64,000 bases of DNA from contig NZ_CP118610.1 in the NCBI RefSeq assembly GCF_028993555.1, positions 2,852,001 through 2,916,000 of the forward strand. Reading direction: 5' to 3'. Source of the DNA: Ensifer adhaerens (GTDB lineage: Bacteria; Pseudomonadota; Alphaproteobacteria; Rhizobiales; Rhizobiaceae). Under the pieces are notes generated by a model that did no database searches, was not told the origin of the DNA, and was given only the letters and a program-made list of their open reading frames with translations. Position 1 is the first letter of the stretch, and each line of letters begins with the position of its first letter. This document shows, piece by piece, positions 6,964 through 29,429 of this stretch. The position numbers and the translations under genes were made by a program.

Positions 6964-7098
6964 CTGTCCCCCTGGCGATCCCCGCGCGCCTCGCCGCGCA
7001 AAGACCGATCTGCCCAAAATCTGGTCTCGCCATCTTCTTGGGCAACAACTTCGTTTTTTTGTTTTTCCGGCTTGAGTGCCGCAATGGAAGCTGTAATG

Positions 7099-7114
7099 TT
7101 TACCAACCGGTCAA
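7099..7114. promoter_or_regulatory. Candidate RutR operator
   Basis: TTTACCAACCGGTCAA (reverse complement TTGACCGGTTGGTAAA) matches the E. coli RutR consensus TTGACCAnnTGGTCAA at 12 of 14 defined positions. It lies in the divergent rutR-hyuC promoter region, 136 bp from the rutR start and 133 bp before hyuC. A further TTGACCA half-site occurs at 7083-7189 region position 7183-7189. Confidence 0.7.
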
Positions 7115-7246
7115 ATTATCAGCCAGTTCACCGCCAAAGGCAACGGCTGATCGAAGGGCACCAGAAAAAACCAAGCCTGGATTTGACCAAGGGAACAGAA
7201 GGGCTCGCCGATTGAGGCAAAGCCCTGAAAAGATGAGGAGACCGCC

Positions 7247-8497
7247 GTGGCTGCACCTGGCGAGAACATGCGCGTCAATTCAGACCGCCTGTGGGATTCA
7301 CTTATGGAGATGGCCAAGATCGGCCCTGGCGTCGCGGGCGGCAACAACCGCCAGACGCTCACCGACGAGGATGCCGAAGGGCGCCGGCTGTTTCAGTCCT
7401 GGTGCGATGCGGCAGGGCTCACCATGGGCGTCGACACCATGGGCAACATGTTCTTCACCCGGCCCGGCACCGACCCGGATGCGCTGCCCGTCTATGTCGG
7501 CTCGCATCTCGACACCCAGCCGACCGGCGGCAAGTATGACGGCGTACTCGGCGTGCTCTCGGGCCTCGAAGTCGTCCGCTCGATGAACGACCTCGGCATC
7601 AAGACCAAGCACCCCATCGTCGTCACCAACTGGACCAATGAGGAAGGCGCGCGCTTCGCGCCAGCCATGCTTGCCTCCGGCGTCTTTGCCGGCGTCCACA
7701 CCCAGGACTTCGCCTATGGCCGCAAGGACCCGGAAGGCAAGACCTTCGGCGACGAGTTGAAGCGCATCGGCTGGGTCGGCGACGAAGAGGTCGGCGCCCG
7801 CAAGATGCACGCCTATTTCGAGTACCATATCGAGCAGGGGCCGATCCTCGAAGCCGAGGGCAAGGACATCGGCGTCGTGACCCACTGTCAGGGCCTGTGG
7901 TGGCTGGAATTCACGCTGACTGGCCGCGAGGCCCATACCGGCTCGACGCCGATGAACATGCGCGTCAACGCCGGGCTTGCCATGGCCCGTATCCTGGAAA
8001 TGGTGCAAGGGGTGGCGATGGAAAACCAGCCGGGCGCCGTCGGCGGCGTCGGCCAGGTGTTCTTCTCGCCCAACTCACGCAACGTGCTGCCGGGCAAGGT
8101 GGTCTTCACCGTCGATATCCGCTCGCCCGACAAGGCCAAACTCGACCGCATGCGCGCCAAGATCGAGGCCGAAGCGCCGAAGATCACCGAGCCGCTGGGT
8201 GTCGGCTGTTCCATCGAGGCGATCGGCCATTTCGAGCCGGTCACCTTCGACCCGAAACTGGTGACGGCAGTGCGGAGTGCCGCCGAACGGCTCGGCTGCA
8301 GCCACATGAACCTCATCTCGGGCGCTGGTCATGACGCCTGCTGGGCCGCCAAGGTGGCGCCGACGACGATGATCATGTGCCCCTGTGTCGGGGGTCTCAG
8401 CCACAACGAGGCGGAGGACATCTCCAGGGAATGGGCCGGCGCCGGCGCTGACGTCCTCTTCCACGCCGTCGTCGAAACGGCCGAAATCGTCGAATGA
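7247..8497 (+). CDS. hyuC: M20-family amidohydrolase, beta-ureidopropionase / N-carbamoyl amino acid hydrolase
   Basis: A 416-residue enzyme with a GTG start preceded by GATGAGGAG. Binuclear zinc-site motifs of the M20 carbamoylase group are present: GSHLDTQPTGGKYDG, TNEEGARF, EYHIEQGPILE and a C-terminal HNEAEDIS. The insert that forms the dimerisation domain lies at about 210-330. It should hydrolyse N-carbamoyl-beta-alanine or N-carbamoyl-beta-aminoisobutyrate to the beta-amino acid, ammonia and CO2, the last step of reductive pyrimidine breakdown. Allantoate amidohydrolase is the main alternative within the family, but dihydropyrimidinase next door and preA nearby favour the pyrimidine role. 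Confidence 0.88.
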   Translation: MAAPGENMRVNSDRLWDSLMEMAKIGPGVAGGNNRQTLTDEDAEGRRLFQSWCDAAGLTMGVDTMGNMFFTRPGTDPDALPVYVGSHLDTQPTGGKYDGVLGVLSGLEVVRSMNDLGIKTKHPIVVTNWTNEEGARFAPAMLASGVFAGVHTQDFAYGRKDPEGKTFGDELKRIGWVGDEEVGARKMHAYFEYHIEQGPILEAEGKDIGVVTHCQGLWWLEFTLTGREAHTGSTPMNMRVNAGLAMARILEMVQGVAMENQPGAVGGVGQVFFSPNSRNVLPGKVVFTVDIRSPDKAKLDRMRAKIEAEAPKITEPLGVGCSIEAIGHFEPVTFDPKLVTAVRSAAERLGCSHMNLISGAGHDACWAAKVAPTTMIMCPCVGGLSHNEAEDISREWAGAGADVLFHAVVETAEIVE

Positions 8498-21638: not shown

Positions 21639-22310
21639 CTAGGATCGGAAGAGCCGAGAATGCAGGGTTTCGTGTTTCAAAGCCGAAATGTCCGCCATGA
21701 TCGTGGCCGAGCCAAGATCGTCGAGCGAGGCGGCGACGGCTCGCTTTGCGGTAGCCGCGATGATCGGCTCCAGCGCCGCGATCACGCCCACGCCGTCACG
21801 CTGGCCGGTCACGCCGCAGCGGATCGCCACCGAAACGGCGTTCGAAACGGCAGCGTTGAGAAAGGCGGCAAGCGCAGGCTCAAGACCGGTAGCATGAGCA
21901 CCGGCGACGGCACCGACAGCCACGGGATAGGCTGCCATCTCATTGAGCGCATCGAATACCGAATGTGGCCACGACCGGGCCGCCGCCAGAAAGGCCTGGC
22001 CTTGCTGCATGGTTTCGGTGTGCCGTTCGCGGCTTCCTGCTAGGGCTTCGGCCAGTTCTGCGACCGCAGCGAGCCGACCAGCATCACCCGACGCTCGATA
22101 GCTCTCGGCAAGAAGCAGTGCATCGTTCCAGCCGGAGCCGTGGCAGATGACTGTCTCCAACCAGGAGCGAAGCTCCACCTCGTCCGTCACCAATTGATCG
22201 TGAACTGCCTGTTCAAGCCCGCTGGAATAGGCGAAAGCACCGACCGGGAAGGCCGGGGACATCCAGGTCACCAGGCGAAGCAGAGCCTGCGTATCGACCC
22301 GCTCAGCCAT
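21639..22310 (-). CDS. ureF: Urease accessory protein UreF
   Basis: A 223-residue all-helical protein. The start at 22310 (MAERVDTQ) overlaps the ureE stop (ATGGCTGA arrangement), giving translational coupling and normal family length. Family features include [19 protein letters not shown] near the N terminus and a C-terminal helical region. It works with UreD as the GTPase-regulating scaffold for UreG during nickel-site assembly. Confidence 0.94.
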
Positions 22311-22776
22311 GATCGTGATGGCTGTGGCCATGGTTGTGACCACCGGCGTGGTAGGCGCCCCGCAGCGGCTGGAAGGGTTCCGAAACCTCCGTCACCTCCG
22401 CACCCAGGCCTTCGAGCATCTGGCGGATGACCGGATCGCGGCCAATCAGGACGCGACTGGTCTCGATCTGCGCCGGCAGATGGCGATTGCCGAGATGCCA
22501 GGCAAGCTCGATCAGATGCAGCGGATCGCGCGGGCGGATCTCATAAAGCGCCTCGGGTGCCGCAAGGATCCGGATATAGCCGCCGCCTTCAAGCACCAGC
22601 AGGTCGCCGTCGGCCAGCATCACGGCTTCCTTGAGGTCGAGCATCACCACGTCGTCGTTCTCAAGATGTAGCAGCTTGCGCCGCAGATGCCGCGCGTCGT
22701 GCGCAAGCGTCACGCTGTGAAGCGGCGCCTTGTCCTTCGGACCAGGAGACAAAACCTCTGTCGAGCGATACGGCAT
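22303..22776 (-). CDS. ureE: Urease nickel metallochaperone UreE
   Basis: A 157-residue protein with an N-terminal peptide-binding domain, a C-terminal metal domain ([12 protein letters not shown] with the conserved histidine) and a His-rich tail ([11 protein letters not shown]) that can store or buffer nickel. It delivers nickel to the UreDFG complex. It overlaps ureF by 8 bases and follows the ABM gene by 2 bp, so these form one transcript. Confidence 0.95.
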
Positions 22777-22778
22777 CT

Positions 22779-23075
22779 TCAGAGCACCTCGACTTTGTCC
22801 GGTGTCACAAGCTCGATGCGCGCTTCGATGAGCAGGTTCGCCATGGCCGCCTGGAAGGCTTTCAGATGCGGCTCTTCGAAATGCGCATCGACAGCCGCCT
22901 TGTCCTTCCAGGTCTCGACGAACACCAGCGCGTCCGGATCACCGGGCTTTCGATAGAGGTCGTAGGTGATGCAGCCGGCCTCGCGGCGCGTCGCCTCGAT
23001 CAGCGGTTCCGCAAGGACGACCACGTCATCTCCCTTGCCCTTGTGCGCGGTCAGGTAGGCGATAATGTAAACCAT
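22779..23075 (-). CDS. Antibiotic-biosynthesis-monooxygenase (ABM/YgiN-like) protein
   Basis: A 98-residue single ABM domain starting at 23075. The ferredoxin-like fold signature is [24 protein letters not shown] and the conserved histidine-containing end is [11 protein letters not shown]. Proteins of this size act as cofactor-free quinol monooxygenases or as small-molecule-binding proteins. It ends 2 bp before ureE and so is probably transcribed with ureEFG. A role in urease assembly is not known. Confidence 0.82.
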
Positions 23076-23182
23076 TGAACCCTCGATATCTTTTTGGCCT
23101 GACAGTGTATCAAGAAATAGCCTCGGCGCCAGTCGGAGCGCGGGTTTTCGGGCGGTCAACACGCCCGCCTCGAACAACAAAA

Positions 23183-23212
23183 AGCCCGAAGACCGGATCC
23201 GATCTTCGGGCT
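23183..23212 (-). terminator. Rho-independent terminator after peroxiredoxin gene
   Basis: A 10-bp perfect stem (AGCCCGAAGA and complement) is followed on the minus strand by TTTTTGTTG. It separates the peroxiredoxin gene from the ABM-ureEFG unit, which must therefore have its own promoter within about 107 bp. Confidence 0.88.
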
Positions 23213-23246
23213 CTCTCAATTCAGGAACGGGTACGTTCTTGTCGCA

Positions 23247-23786
<540 letters not shown>

Positions 23787-24076
23787 CGTCATCTCCTTTG
23801 GATCACGATGAAATTGGATCGGCTCGACCCAAAATCATACGCGATCACATCCATCAAGTTAGAGCGGGATGCCGGCGGAAAACCGCAAACACGTTACCTC
23901 ACCCTGCGCTCATACGGCTCTCGGTCGGCAAGTCTTGGGAGGGTTTCTGACAACCGAGAACAATCAGCCGCTTTCCTATCGGATATTGCGCTGCGGCGCA
24001 GCACGAAAGGCCCCGATTCACATGCGAGCATGGCAGCCATGCGATGACCGCATGGCTGCTGTTCAATGCGAAGACC
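23787..24076. other. 290-bp intergenic region
   Basis: No supported gene. An 11-bp perfect inverted repeat lies at 24034-24044 and 24050-24060 (GCAGCCATGCG, loop ATGAC). It is 17 bp beyond the stop of the DUF2459 gene on the minus strand but lacks a U tract, so it may be a transcript-end stabiliser rather than a clear terminator. The rest should hold the peroxiredoxin promoter, which I cannot place. Confidence 0.5.
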
Positions 24077-24748
24077 TCAATTGTGGATGCGCAAGGATAG
24101 TCCGAGACTTGGCGGAACCGGGTTCCACAGACCGGTTCTCAAGCCCGCCTCGCGGAGCGCCCGCGCTGTCCATGTGTTGCAGCCGAAAAGCGCGTTGAAA
24201 CTGCCTTCGGCTTCGAAGAAGCGGTCATTGCCATTATAGGAGTAGCCGTCTATCGGCAGCACAGCGCCGGCGTCGCGTGCAAAACTCTTGGCAATGAAGC
24301 CAAGCAGTCGTTCATATCCCGCTGCGTCCAGTTCGAGGCCGGCAACGGAGGCTTGCGGTTCGACGATCCGGCCGGCGATATCCACATGCATGACCGAGCG
24401 ATCGAGCGTCAGCGCCTTGAAGACCGGCATGGCCTTCAGCTCCGACCAGGTCGGCGTTTCCAGATAGAAGGAACGCCCGCCCCAGCCGAAAATCAGCCAT
24501 TGTGCCTGCGAGTGCGCCAACGGCACGCCAGCCGCTTCGATGAAGCCGAACCGCGCCCTCGTCTCCTCCGTCAAGGGCACGGCGATATCCGTATGGATAG
24601 GGCCTGAAAGTACCAGAATACGCGTCCCCGCTGCTCCGGCCGCAGAGGCGGAAACAGGCAAGAGCGGCCGCGGCAGCAGCGTTCCGAAAACGACCGCGAG
24701 CACTGCAGCCAGCAGGCCGCAGAAGACCCATTTCAGGCCGCGCTTCAT
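24077..24748 (-). CDS. Urease-region DUF2459 (TIGR02117) protein
   Basis: A 223-residue protein with an N-terminal membrane anchor or signal (about 7-30, WVFCGLLAAVLAVVFGTLL). The periplasmic part has the family segments HTDIAVPL near 55 and [14 protein letters not shown] near 195, with a conserved cysteine and histidine that could be catalytic. The family is known mainly from urease neighbourhoods; no function is established to my knowledge. It lies 16 bp downstream of ureC and is probably co-transcribed with it. Confidence 0.82.
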   Translation of the reverse strand: MKRGLKWVFCGLLAAVLAVVFGTLLPRPLLPVSASAAGAAGTRILVLSGPIHTDIAVPLTEETRARFGFIEAAGVPLAHSQAQWLIFGWGGRSFYLETPTWSELKAMPVFKALTLDRSVMHVDIAGRIVEPQASVAGLELDAAGYERLLGFIAKSFARDAGAVLPIDGYSYNGNDRFFEAEGSFNALFGCNTWTARALREAGLRTGLWNPVPPSLGLSLRIHN

Positions 24749-24764: not shown

Positions 24765-26477
24765 TCAGAACAGGAAGTAGCGCTGTGCCATCGGCACGAC
24801 CGTCGCCGGCTCGCAGGTCAGAAGCTCGCCATCGGCGCGCACCTCGTAGGTTTCCGGATCAACCTCGATATGCGGTAGCAGGCTGTTGTGGATCATCGAC
24901 GCCTTGCCGATGCCGCCACGGGTGTTCCTGACCGCAACGAGCTGCTTGGCAACGCCAAGCTTGGCGGCAAGCCCTGCATCGAGCGAGGCCTGAGACACGA
25001 AGGTGACGGAAGAACTCGTGCGGTTCTTGCCGTAGGCGGCAAACATCGGCCGGTAATGCACCGGCTGCGGCGTCGGAATGGAGGCGTTCGGGTCGCCCAT
25101 CGGCGCCATGGCGATCGAGCCGCCGAGAAGCACGAAGTCCGGCTTCACCCCGAAAAAGGCCGGGTTCCAGATGACGATATCGGCACGCTTGCCGACCTCA
25201 AGCGAGCCGATCTCGTGGCTGAGACCATGGGCGATCGCCGGATTGATCGTGTATTTGGCGATGTAGCGCTTCACCCGGAAATTGTCGTTGTCGCCGGTTT
25301 CCTGCGGCAGCGGCCCGCGCTGGCGCTTCATCTTGTCGGCGGTCTGCCAGGTGCGGATCGCCACCTCGCCGACGCGGCCCATGGCCTGGCTGTCAGACGA
25401 GATGATCGAGAAGGCACCGATGTCATGCAGGATATCCTCGGCGGCGATCGTTTCCTTGCGGATCCGGCTTTCGGCAAAGGCGATATCTTCGGGGATCGAC
25501 GGCGACAGGTGATGGCAGACCATCAGCATATCCAGGTGTTCGGCAAGCGTGTTCTTGGTGTAAGGCCGGGTCGGATTGGTCGAGGACGGAATGACATTCG
25601 GCTGGCCGCAGATCTTGATGATGTCCGGCGCATGGCCGCCGCCCGCCCCTTCAGTGTGGAAGGCATGGATCGTGCGGCCCTTGATCGCAGCGATCGTGTC
25701 CTCGACGAAGCCACTCTCGTTCAGGGTGTCGGTGTGGATCATCACCTGCACGTCGTACTCGTCGGCGACGCCGAGGCAGCAATCGATCGCCGCCGGCGTC
25801 GAGCCCCAGTCCTCGTGCAGCTTCAGCGACGTGGCACCGGCAAGCACCATTTCCGCCAGCGCCCCGGGCCGCGACGCATTGCCCTTGCCGGCAAAGGCGA
25901 TGTTCATCGGGAAGCCATCGGCCGCCTCGATCATGCGGGCCAGATGCCAGGGGCCTGAGGTGCAGGTAGTGGCAAGCGTGCCATGTCCCGGCCCCGCGCC
26001 GCCGCCGAGCATGCAGGTGAGGCCGCTCACCAGCGCCTCCTCGATCTGCTGCGGGCAGATGTAGTGGATGTGGCTGTCCATGCCGCCAGCGGTGACGATC
26101 TTGCCTTCGCCGGCAATCACTTCCGTTCCCGGGCCGACGACTATGGTGACGCCGGCTTGCGTATCCGGATTGCCGGCCTTGCCGATCCCGGCGATCCGCC
26201 CCTCCTTGAGACCGATATCGGCCTTGACGATGCCCCAATGGTCGACGATCAGCGCATTGGTGATGACCGTGTCGACCGCACCTTCGGCGCGTGTCGCCTG
26301 GCTCTGCCCCATACCGTCGCGAATGACCTTGCCACCCCCGAACTTCACCTCTTCGCCATAGGTGGTGAAGTCCTTCTCGACCTCGATGAAGAGCTCGGTA
26401 TCCGCAAGCCGCACCTTGTCGCCGACCGTTGGGCCGAACATGTTGGCATAGGCCGCGCGCGACATCTTGTAAGGCAT
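24765..26477 (-). CDS. ureC: Urease alpha subunit
   Basis: A 570-residue catalytic subunit that hydrolyses urea to ammonia and carbamate. Nickel-site motifs: [14 protein letters not shown] (HxH), carbamylated lysine in [19 protein letters not shown] and [15 protein letters not shown]. The mobile-flap/active-site histidines are in [13 protein letters not shown], and C-terminal length is normal. It assembles with UreA and UreB encoded upstream and is activated by UreDEFG. It lies 3 bp after the GT29-like gene. Confident assignment. Confidence 0.98.
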
Positions 26478-26480
26478 GGT

Positions 26481-27125
26481 TCAGGCTCCTTGGGACGAAG
26501 AAGAAAGTGGATGGAGGCGGCGAAGGCGGCCGCCTGCTGCCAGCGCGTCGACATAGCGGCGCTCGGCATCAAAGGGGTGCCACTCCCAGCCGACATGGCC
26601 GAAGCCGGCAAGAACGACGTCGTCATCGGCTGTCGCGATATTGGACAGGATGTCGGCGATGACGATCAGGCCGCTGGACGGAACGACGTAGGGATTGGGC
26701 GAGAAGCCGGCGAGATCACGATCCAGCTGGTCATGCACCGCCGCGGACACGATGCGGACATGGCGGCCTGTCGAGCGGCTGAAGCTCTCGAAGCCGACGG
26801 TATAGTCGTCACAGAAATCGTCGAGATCCGGATGCGTTTCGGCAAGACCGACCCGCATCGCGGCAAACTTCGCACCGGAGCGGACGCACCAGATTTCGCG
26901 CGCCTGACGCACGGGCGCGCTCGTCTTCCAACGGCCGCCGCCGAGCATGGCGAGCCCCGGGCGGCCAGTGTTGCAGACGGCGACGATATCGGTCTTGTGG
27001 CCACCGGAACCGACGGAACGGCAATCGTTGAAACGCACGACAATATCGGCAGCGTCGATCGATACGGAAGCTCCGTCAGGCACTTCGCCATTGCCCACGA
27101 TCATGATGGTACGGCTGCCGCTCAA
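26481..27125 (-). CDS. GT29 (sialyltransferase)-like 'urease operon accessory' protein
   Basis: A 214-residue protein with a TTG start at 27125 (GACGGA upstream; ATG 27104 is the alternative). The N-terminal half resembles sialylmotif L of GT29 enzymes: IMIVGNGEVPDG, ADIVVRFNDC, GHKTDIVAVC. A motif-S-like PSSGLIVIADIL lies near 150 and a terminal GFGHVGWEWHPFDAERRYV near 178. No signal peptide or membrane helix is seen, so it is cytoplasmic, unlike Golgi enzymes. It lies between lprI-like and ureC with gaps of 3 bp on each side, so it is firmly in the urease operon. Enzymatic activity and link to urease are unknown; similar proteins in rhizobia carry the label 'urease operon accessory protein'. 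Confidence 0.72.
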   Translation of the reverse strand: MSGSRTIMIVGNGEVPDGASVSIDAADIVVRFNDCRSVGSGGHKTDIVAVCNTGRPGLAMLGGGRWKTSAPVRQAREIWCVRSGAKFAAMRVGLAETHPDLDDFCDDYTVGFESFSRSTGRHVRIVSAAVHDQLDRDLAGFSPNPYVVPSSGLIVIADILSNIATADDDVVLAGFGHVGWEWHPFDAERRYVDALAAGGRLRRLHPLSSSSQGA

Positions 27126-27128
27126 GGT

Positions 27129-27548
27129 CTAGTTTCCGTCAGGCTCGACAATGGCCTGGAGTTCCTTCGTCCGGGCTCTCGTCAACTCGGTGAGGCAACC
27201 GGAAACAAGCATCGGCTCCATCGAGCCCCCGCGGGCTTCGAAGCCCGAAAGCTCGCACTGACCGTCCCGGTAACCGATCCAGGCGCGCTGGGCCTTCTTC
27301 AGTGCCTCTTCCGCACCAACGTAGTTCGCATCGATCTCGGCAAGCTCCTTGTCCTGCGCCTTTGTCGCTGCGAGTGCCAGCTTATAGACCTTGTTCAGTT
27401 CCGCGTCGGCCGCCTCATAGTCCTTGTTGGCGCAGATATTCATGTCCATCTGCGTGACGGCGTTCTGGCAGTCGACCTTGTCTTCCTGCGCCAAGGCCGG
27501 CACAAGCGGCAAAACGACAGCGACGGCAAGTACAGCGAGGCGGTTCAT
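27129..27548 (-). CDS. LprI/DUF1311-family periplasmic protein
   Basis: A 139-residue protein with a signal peptide ([20 protein letters not shown]). The mature part has the LprI-like pattern: [14 protein letters not shown], then [13 protein letters not shown] and [25 protein letters not shown] with a late cysteine in GCLTEL. The four cysteines probably form two disulfides. Some family members inhibit lysozyme. It overlaps ureB by 4 bases and leads into the GT29-like gene. Why a periplasmic protein sits in a urease operon is unclear. Confidence 0.85.
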
Positions 27549-27850
27549 AGCTTACCCATCACTTGCTGGCGGAAGCCATAGACTTCGCGCTTGCCGGAAA
27601 GAGGGATCAGCGTCACCTGGCGCGTCTGGCCGGGCTCGAAACGCACAGCTGTGCCAGCCGGTATATCCAGGCGCCGGCCGTAGGCGGCCTTCCGGTCAAA
27701 CTGCAGCCCGGCATTGGTTTCGGCGAAATGGTAGTGGCTGCCGACCTGAATCGGCCGATCGCCGGTGTTCGCAACCTCGATGGTTGTCGTGTCGAGGCCG
27801 GCATTGAGCTCGAGCTCTCCGGCGGCGGCGATGATTTCTCCTGGGATCAT
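27545..27850 (-). CDS. ureB: Urease beta subunit
   Basis: A 101-residue subunit with start 27850 (MIPGEIIAA, the standard N terminus); an earlier in-frame ATG at 27877 would overlap the gap after DUF1272. Contains the typical [19 protein letters not shown] and [15 protein letters not shown] segments. It forms the (UreABC)3 complex with UreA and UreC. Its stop overlaps the start of the lprI-like gene. Confidence 0.97.
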
Positions 27851-27860
27851 GGTTCTCTCC

Positions 27861-28115
27861 TCAAGCCGCCTTCGCACCGGCGCAGCTCAGTGGCTTCAGC
27901 ACCCGCTCAGTGGAGGCCGGGTATCTTTCAAGCAGGGCGGCCGGACGCACCGGGCGGCGCGTGAATTCGCCGCCGCAATTCGGGCAGGTGCCATCGAGCT
28001 TTCCATCGACACAATCGACGCAGAAGGTGCATTCGAAGGTACAGATCATCGCCTCGCGGCTATCCGGCGGCAGATCCTTGTCGCAGCACTCGCAATTGGG
28101 GCGCAAAGCCAGCAT
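27861..28115 (-). CDS. DUF1272 cysteine-rich zinc-ribbon-like protein
   Basis: An 84-residue protein with eight cysteines in the first 50 residues: [21 protein letters not shown] and CPNCGGEF, the DUF1272 pattern, very likely binding zinc in a treble-clef or RING-like fold. The C-terminal tail is variable. It lies between ureA and ureB, 10 bp before ureB. The family has no known function; it could bind metal relevant to nickel handling, but this is speculation. Confidence 0.85.
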
Positions 28116-28170: not shown

Positions 28171-28473
28171 TTAGCGGATCGGTTCGTGAACGGTGACGAG
28201 CTTGGTGCCGTCGGGGAACGTCGCTTCGATCTGGATGTCGTGGATCATCTCGGGGATGCCCTCCATCACCTGCTCGCGCGTCAGCACCTGCGCCCCCGCC
28301 TCCATCAGTTCGGCCACCGAGCGCCCGTCGCGGGCACCTTCGACGACGAAATCAGTGATCAGCGCGATCGCCTCTGGGTGGTTGAGCTTCACACCGCGCT
28401 CCAAGCGCCGCCGCGCGACCATGGCCGCCATCGAAATCAGCAATTTGTCCTTTTCGCGTGGGGTAAGATTCAT
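28171..28473 (-). CDS. ureA: Urease gamma subunit
   Basis: A 100-residue subunit beginning [27 protein letters not shown], with HPEAIALI and [26 protein letters not shown], all standard for UreA. It is separated from ureD by a 122-bp gap that contains a dispersed repeat, and from DUF1272 by 55 bp. Confidence 0.97.
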
Positions 28474-28514: not shown

Positions 28515-28600
28515 TGCGAAGCGGTTTTCCGTCAGGAACTGCGAAGTTTCAACGTGTTAGATCATTTCACTGTTTCAAGAAAAACATGAGATGACCTAGA
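28515..28600. repeat. Rhizobial intergenic repeat, copy B
   Basis: It aligns with 5233-5320 over its whole length (GCGAAGCGGTTTTCCGTC and ATTTCACTGTTTCA blocks). It fills most of the ureD-ureA gap, and its GACCTAG end supplies the ureD stop codon (28596-28598). It resembles short mosaic elements common in Rhizobiaceae. Confidence 0.6.
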
Positions 28601-29429
28601 GAACCCAGACTTTCGGCACTGTCTTCTGCTTACGCAAGCGCGAAATAATGGGGATGAGGATTTTTCTGAGCGCGAACCCGTCCGACGCCACGAAGCGGGC
28701 AACCAGCTTGTCGCGGCCATCGACCTGAAAATGGCTTAGACCGACACCAGCCTCGCCATCGACGAGCGATCGAAGACGCGGCAACAGGGGCTCGCAATCA
28801 GGGCCGACATAGAGGAGCGTGGCAAAGGCGGCCCCGCCATCAAGCACCGCCCGGCGCTGGCCAAGGCTGGCGACCTCTCCGGCAAGCGCCAGATTGTCCG
28901 CATGCAGCAGCTTTCCTTCGATCCGAACGCGCCAGCGATCGCGAAAGAGCCCGGCATGCACCGCCTCCCCCATCGCCTTGCGGCCGAGCAGAACCGCTTC
29001 CACCGCCAGGAACGTCGCGTCCGCGGCAAGTTCCACGTCCAGCGAACGCGACAGCGAAGCACGGTCGAAGAGGATCGTTTCCTGCGGCAGCCAATCGACG
29101 CGCGCGCCCGCGGCCACCTCGATACGCGTGGCCACCCCGACGGTATCGGCGCTCGCCTTGTAGATCTTCTCGCAGGCCTGTGTCGTCACAGTCACATCGG
29201 TTCCGGCCCCTGCCGCAACCTCCCACCCCATGCGGTCACCGCCGGTGAGGCCGCCGGAGGAATTGATCAGCACCGCTTCCATGGAGGTGTCGAAGGTCTT
29301 CGGCAGCCGGATCTTGGCGCAGCCCTCTTGATAAAGCTCGGCAATGCGGCTCTGGCCGAGCGCCATCTTGGCGACCAGCCGACCCTTCCCCCAGGCCCGT
29401 TGCGGAGCGATGCTTGCTGCCTTGTTCAT
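28596..29429 (-). CDS. ureD: Urease accessory protein UreD
   Basis: A 277-residue scaffold protein. Family features: [20 protein letters not shown] near 60, [11 protein letters not shown], and [23 protein letters not shown]. It binds apo-urease and recruits UreF and UreG. It is the first gene of the minus-strand urease region; the promoter should lie in 29430-29604, where I could not place one confidently. The C-terminal codons run into the repeat element. Confidence 0.95.

Follow-up and report, generated by a model that had tools for sequence, protein, structure and literature searches.

Bacterial members of the GT29 glycosyltransferase family are already known: the passages of a 2018 account that treat them (PMC5811610) describe mostly alphaproteobacterial proteins that have neither a transmembrane domain nor conserved disulfide cysteines. 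Transfer by GT29 enzymes is described, in an extract of PMC10225777, as inverting and metal-independent, with a histidine acting as the base. In plants, RCKT1/MGP2 is presented in the corresponding part of PMC11288761 as a Golgi-localised GT29 candidate acting on pectin, with CMP-Kdo as the proposed donor and in an organism containing little if any sialic acid. The main text of PMC5811610 contains none of the terms 'Rhizob', 'urease' and 'Bradyrhizobium', while its supplementary accessions may overlap with the proteins considered here. In the literature searched, no paper joined sialyltransferase, Rhizobium and urease, and there was no mention of 'urease operon accessory protein', the positional name under which the gene studied here is already known in databases.

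This gene, termed gt, lies in a 64,000-nucleotide stretch of Ensifer adhaerens DNA, the window. Its product resembles the bacterial GT29 proteins of PMC5811610, as characterized in those same passages, in being alphaproteobacterial and in having no transmembrane domain and no conserved disulfide cysteines. Compared with the GT29 enzymes ST3Gal1, ST6GALNAC2, ST6Gal1 and ST8SiaIII (PF00777), it is compact, at 213 residues without the start residue, and has no visible anchor segment. One of motifs III and VS seems to be missing, and gt differs from these enzymes further in an acidic stretch specific to its orthologs and in a host genome without NeuB. RCKT1/MGP2 is a candidate of the plant Golgi, whereas gt is bacterial.

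The gt gene within the urease operon

The operon reads ureD, ureA, DUF1272, ureB, lprI, gt, ureC, DUF2459, peroxiredoxin, ABM, ureE and ureF (Table 1), in a source genome of 7.77 Mb in 4 contigs; for DUF1272, this gene order matches the annotated S. meliloti operon record. An open reading frame 3 bp from ureC inside a urease operon had been proposed in the initial annotation, and the coordinates agree with this together with the Pfam-identified ureC, ureB, ureA and ureD. The segments quoted there as sialylmotif-like, VVRFNDC, GHKTDIVAV and PSSGLIVIADIL, are all located in the gt translation. As judged from its sequence, gt is confirmed as a genuine conserved gene, its relatives and purifying selection (dN/dS of 0.20 against Ensifer sp. 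Root278) ruling out a chance reading frame. The lprI product scores far under the cut-off of the NCBIfam UmoC subfamily. The DUF2459/TIGR02117 gene is found in some relatives of the operon and is missing from others.

Table 1. Features of the urease operon in the window
Feature	Coordinates	Strand	Details and basis
Peroxiredoxin-, antibiotic-monooxygenase (ABM)-, ureE- and ureF-like genes	21639..23792	(-)	ORF coordinates; homology with the annotated S. meliloti operon of like order
DUF2459/TIGR02117 urease-region hypothetical protein	24077..24748	(-)	PF09601 7.6e-46; TIGR02117 chp_urease_rgn 9.7e-76
ureC, urease alpha subunit	24765..26477	(-)	PF00449 1.5e-57; PF01979 7.5e-79
Spacer, gt stop to ureC ATG	26478..26480	(-)	3 bp; ORF coordinates
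gt, compact GT29-type glycosyltransferase-like gene	26481..27125	(-)	214 aa, TTG start; family, profile and fold evidence
Spacer, lprI stop to gt start	27126..27128	(-)	3 bp; ORF coordinates
lprI, LprI family, signal-like N-terminus by inspection	27129..27548	(-)	PF07007 E 2.6e-28
ureB, urease beta subunit	27545..27877	(-)	PF00699 8.8e-46
DUF1272 gene	27861..28115	(-)	tblastn homology to a gene of Shinella with a PF06906-matching product (6e-29)
ureA, urease gamma subunit	28171..28473	(-)	PF00547 5.7e-48
ureD, accessory protein	28596..29429	(-)	PF01774 1.9e-50

Fold and sequence motifs

Taken alone, the gt protein matches no GT29 family model; its sole family-model match is to DUF6207 (E 0.05, under the cut-off of that model), and a PF00777 search across the whole source genome gave zero matches. 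The link to GT29 is visible solely through relatives, profiles and the predicted fold, never through the lone sequence, so that a single-sequence test would wrongly reject it. The family alignment holds 92 of 94 non-redundant rows, the long L077 and the fusion L122 being omitted and the window sequence replacing L001, and L045, L155 and L156 had been removed ahead of the 94-row set. PF00777 is matched at E<=1 by 74 of these 92 members, with a best value of 4.9e-8, and 4 of 10 distant cousins scanned exceed the Pfam gathering threshold (23 bits). Against GT29 crystal-structure chains, the family profile finds ST3Gal1 at 2.7e-4; HMMER aligns the motif L region with ST3Gal1 and ST6GALNAC2 and the motif S region with ST3Gal1. 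Sequence-profile searches with the family matched no chain of the GT42 enzymes CstII and Cst-I.

The structure predicted for gt (pLDDT 94.5) has the GT-A variant fold of GT29. In a Foldseek search with this model, ranks 1-35 are all GT29 or CstI/CstII sialyltransferases, with moderate TM-scores of 0.47-0.59 by query length for the rows through rank 35; GT29 comes first, the other sialyltransferases, GT42 enzymes included, come next, and any other fold comes after. The resemblance to GT29 sialylmotifs noticed in the initial annotation is thus upheld by the PF00777 matches, the profile match and the 35 top-ranked structures, and the comparison with GT29 folds suggested there returned a confident model with GT29 on top. 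This evidence supports the identification of gt as a compact bacterial GT29-type protein.

Eleven residues are invariant in all 92 rows: G10, N11, R30, N32, G151, G173, F174, G178, W179, H182 and E187 (the numbering omits the start residue). The first four form the GN and RxN elements of sialylmotif L, and sialylmotif S is present as G151, G173 and F174 together with P148 and S149, each of the latter two in 91 of 92 rows. Motif VS reads HxxxxE, and H182 and E187 make up such a pair. H182 is also the sole histidine invariant across the 92 rows; it lies 8 positions from GF and is the one such residue that remains after GF when motif III is sought. The HMMER alignment brings H182 to motif III of ST3Gal1, whereas the ends of the structural range (206 with 343 of 2wnf), if the range is ungapped, would put H182 and E187 at His319 and Glu324, both of which are named in the docking account of ST3Gal1 in an extract of PMC8433944. 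Sequence alignment and structural end points thus disagree on whether H182 belongs to motif VS or motif III, and its catalytic role is tentative. PDB alignments of the family contain a single C-terminal motif, a profile restricted to the C-terminal part matched no GT29 chain among the structure chains, and gt seems to lack either motif III or motif VS as an element of its own. Both motifs are missing in two of three Arabidopsis GT29-like proteins, according to the relevant passage of PMC5811610. In animal members a cysteine bridge connects motifs L and S, whereas the gt S region has no cysteine; this is compatible with bacterial GT29, which is reported in the same passages to be without the bridge.

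Distribution, linkage to urease and persistence without it

At E<=0.001, gt matches occur in 51 of 151 family genomes, and orthologs (at least 47% identity) in 25. The distribution is patchy, since in a looser order-wide sample the whole-family profile was matched in 34 of 397 genomes; phage records searched with gt yielded nothing at E<=1e-5. In named genomes 126 relatives came up, and among the best 80 of these 126, which were analysed, the closest four are from Ensifer strains (84-87% identity). Urease-linked copies make up 21 of the 25 family orthologs and 73 of the best 80 of 126 named-genome loci, where five further loci have lprI without adjacent urease genes and two have neither. In 95 of 95 typed urease-linked loci (some genomes twice), gt is flanked by ureB and ureC, all three on one strand, and in 80 of them its stop is 2-6 bp from the ureC match.

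This constancy of place is not matched by constancy of occurrence. PF00449 (ureC) was matched in 132 of 151 family genomes, and 124 are taken as ureC genomes, the eight with weak matches alone (E above 1e-10) being uncounted. An ortholog of gt is carried by 24 of these 124 and is missing from 100, and gt is found in 1 of 27 family genomes outside the set; the enrichment is weak, with urease in 24 of 25 gt genomes versus 100 of 126 others (p=0.049). Of ten genomes checked in which gt lies away from urease (G075 and G153, apparently one genome, enter as one), seven carry a further urease at another site, and the remaining three, G050, G155 and G156, show no intact urease. Thus gt is neither needed by urease nor always present with it. 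Of the co-occurrence with urease operons suggested in the initial annotation, the fixed ureB-ureC place stands and the regular pairing does not, and the connection to urease, nickel or urea considered there is not supported in view of the same 100 genomes and of the retention of gt where urease was lost.

A PF00547 search found nothing in G050 and in G156, a metagenome assembly that is possibly incomplete, and gave a 42-residue match in G155 at the site of ureA and ureB relics. In the latter genome, Shinella zoogloeoides PQ7 (locus L072, 5967-6563), ureA and ureB survive in their original places as internally shortened relics, next to which DUF1272, lprI and gt align over almost their full length. 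Locus L063 retains a scrap of ureD, a weak scrap of ureA, and ureE. Values of dN/dS are 0.15-0.26 for five pairs without adjacent urease and 0.11-0.20 for nine linked pairs, some pairs sharing genomes, and purifying selection on gt is, by this sequence measure, similar with or without adjacent urease, dN/dS being slightly higher without. The gt tree needs five changes of linkage, four of them forced by starred branches, and by itself gives these changes no direction; a first tree omitted L155, L156 and L200, a second comprises 66 hand-picked rows, and long-branch rows, L191, L192, L193, L196, L198 and L199 among them, are of unsure placement. Loss of urease with retention of gt amounts to a natural test against a urease role.

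The site itself was compared in 40 urease operons without gt, taken down the list (37 of the 100 ortholog-free urease genomes and 3 with gt elsewhere). Both ureB and ureC were found in 38 of the 40, spaced by at least 467 bp in 27 and by less than 200 bp in 11, and lprI is present in 12 of the 40 ureB-ureC regions. Eight of ten gap-gene representatives scanned matched families (cyclase, LysE, GFA, LPG-synthase TM, CMD, MazE-like, HD and LprI) and two matched none; the HD gene sits between ureA and ureB rather than ureB and ureC, and some gap reading frames appear to be wrong-frame artefacts. The ureB-ureC and ureA-ureB gaps (L203-L242) hold assorted unrelated genes among the rhizobial urease structural genes, and an early R. 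meliloti urease paper reportedly found further reading frames interspersed among the structural genes. The gaps between rhizobial urease structural genes are a recurrent cargo site.

Donor, acceptor and alternative roles

A search of the source genome for NeuB (PF03102) did not find it, and the PF02348 matches there are limited to KdsB and a GlmU-like protein. In the family genomes NeuB is unassociated with gt (6 of 25 gt genomes versus 25 of 126 others, p=0.60). A sialic acid donor was dropped as the leading idea on these grounds. With KdsB present and no NeuB, CMP-Kdo is the likeliest donor; judging from gene content, it appears to be the sole CMP-ulosonate that the source genome can make, and plant RCKT1, in the part of PMC11288761 cited above, offers a precedent. 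As for the acceptor, an acidic stretch at about residues 100-108 is common to 63 orthologs, with L100, D102 and D106 invariant, and reads LDDFCDDYT in the window protein, whereas LPS-cluster cousins are mostly basic there; this difference suggests that the acceptor of gt is probably not that of the LPS group. The 95 urease-linked rows have a median pI of 5.9, compared with 7.0 in the 12 orthologs not next to urease and 9.1 in the 18 LPS/GT8-group rows, but the 11 S6PP-group rows are also low, at 5.8.

We favour, with a probability of roughly 0.6, the reading that gt encodes an independent CMP-sugar transferase of GT29 type, probably with CMP-Kdo as donor, carried as cargo in the urease operon. 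The gene would have been inserted between ureB and ureC, next to lprI, in an ancestral urease operon of rhizobia, and would be expressed together with urease while acting independently of it. The putatively active enzyme would draw on CMP-Kdo, with His182 as catalytic base in an inverting mechanism that needs no metal, like the one outlined for GT29 in PMC10225777, and its acceptor may be either soluble or an envelope glycan. Relatedness to GT29, the modelled fold, the invariant residues of the motifs, a fixed place wherever gt is linked and its survival where urease was lost carry this reading; in particular, a gene that outlives the loss of the surrounding urease genes is probably a passenger with a sugar-transfer job of its own. 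Some benefit from co-expression with urease is possible, as gt is weakly enriched in urease genomes and the short gt-ureC spacing is kept across many species. The further urease in seven of the ten genomes with unlinked gt and the slightly higher dN/dS of copies not next to urease also weigh somewhat against the favoured reading.

That gt is instead a true accessory or regulatory factor of urease, through modification, for instance, of the enzyme itself, of a nickel chaperone or of a small ligand, would fit its invariable position and tight spacing, the weak enrichment in urease genomes and its database name, 'Urease operon accessory protein'. This role is nonetheless unlikely given the 100 urease genomes that lack an ortholog, the three that keep gt without an intact urease, the purifying selection acting where urease is not adjacent, and plasmid copies that lack any urease gene over a distance of about 7 kb. 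The name itself is positional: plasmid entries that bear it belong to the gt family, it stands on 12 of the 33 matches listed, and four copies so named have no urease gene within that same distance, so that the present results correct a label being copied to genes without nearby urease. A somewhat less improbable alternative is a repurposed, non-catalytic GT29 fold, a pseudoenzyme or ligand binder, as gt seems not to have both motif III and motif VS. The mere 8 positions between GF and the sole invariant histidine, the single C-terminal motif, the C-terminal profile that finds no GT29 chain and the loss of several invariant residues in plasmid copy L249 agree with it; the strong fold match and the eleven motif-region residues, invariant even in the distant cousins, argue against it. 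Least probable, and indeed very doubtful, is that gt truly transfers sialic or another nonulosonic acid from CMP-Neu5Ac, CMP-Leg or CMP-Pse: the closest structural relatives are sialyltransferases, but NeuB is missing from the source genome and unassociated with gt in the family, and KdsB and the GlmU-like protein account for all PF02348 matches. A small bacterial GT29-type protein in a NeuB-free genome provides a tractable system for GT29 roles apart from sialylation.

Relatives of gt away from urease

Distant cousins, 23-30% identical to the window protein, belong to glycan gene clusters, which speaks for a sugar-transfer role. Some have GT8-like, GT25, GT2 and polysaccharide deacetylase genes as neighbours, others S6PP/GT4 and GT28-like genes. 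In L122 (5066-6430) a GT29-like and a GT8-like domain are joined in one fusion, whereas other genomes, L132 for example, have them as separate neighbours. Within the ortholog clade, L024, L244, L245 and L246 form a group (support 100/99) located close to folE, SDR, amine oxidoreductase and DUF3429 genes or to a subset of these; the gt locus of L245 (5511-10521) also has an ECF sigma factor and a ChrR-cupin protein, and folE and SDR genes lie by gt in L247. No urease genes occur in the 12-15 kb around gt of L152 (for L024), L243-L247, L249 and L250. TspO, lipocalin and CFA synthase genes are found at the L246 and L247 loci.

In Rhodobacter sphaeroides, folE2, an SDR gene and genes for cyclopropane fatty acids belong to the RpoE regulon, according to a portion of PMC7074977. 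A stress link of the folE-side copies, whose loci resemble an RpoE-ChrR stress locus and lie mostly on rhizobial plasmids, is therefore plausible. More speculatively, and with little expectation on our part, the orthologs might form a distinct soluble GT29 clade that transfers Kdo onto a non-LPS, perhaps small, acceptor and is deployed with stress or nitrogen operons. Its settings would, just as tentatively, be the urease operon and, for the nested group with its near-identical acidic stretch, the FolE-SDR/amine-oxidoreductase-DUF3429 locus, which in L245, with its ECF sigma and ChrR, recalls the RpoE-ChrR singlet-oxygen regulon; pterin glycosylation at the folE-side loci is conceivable.

Two plasmid copies of gt are decaying, one in L249 (about 7001-7573), with several invariant residues lost, and one in L250 (about 7001-7583), matched in two pieces. 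In two genomes of one genus, a gene for a Tlde1-domain protein adjoins lprI and gt (L153, 4668-6973; L154, 6587-8921), and this neighbour hints at a peptidoglycan enzyme as a possible partner of LprI.
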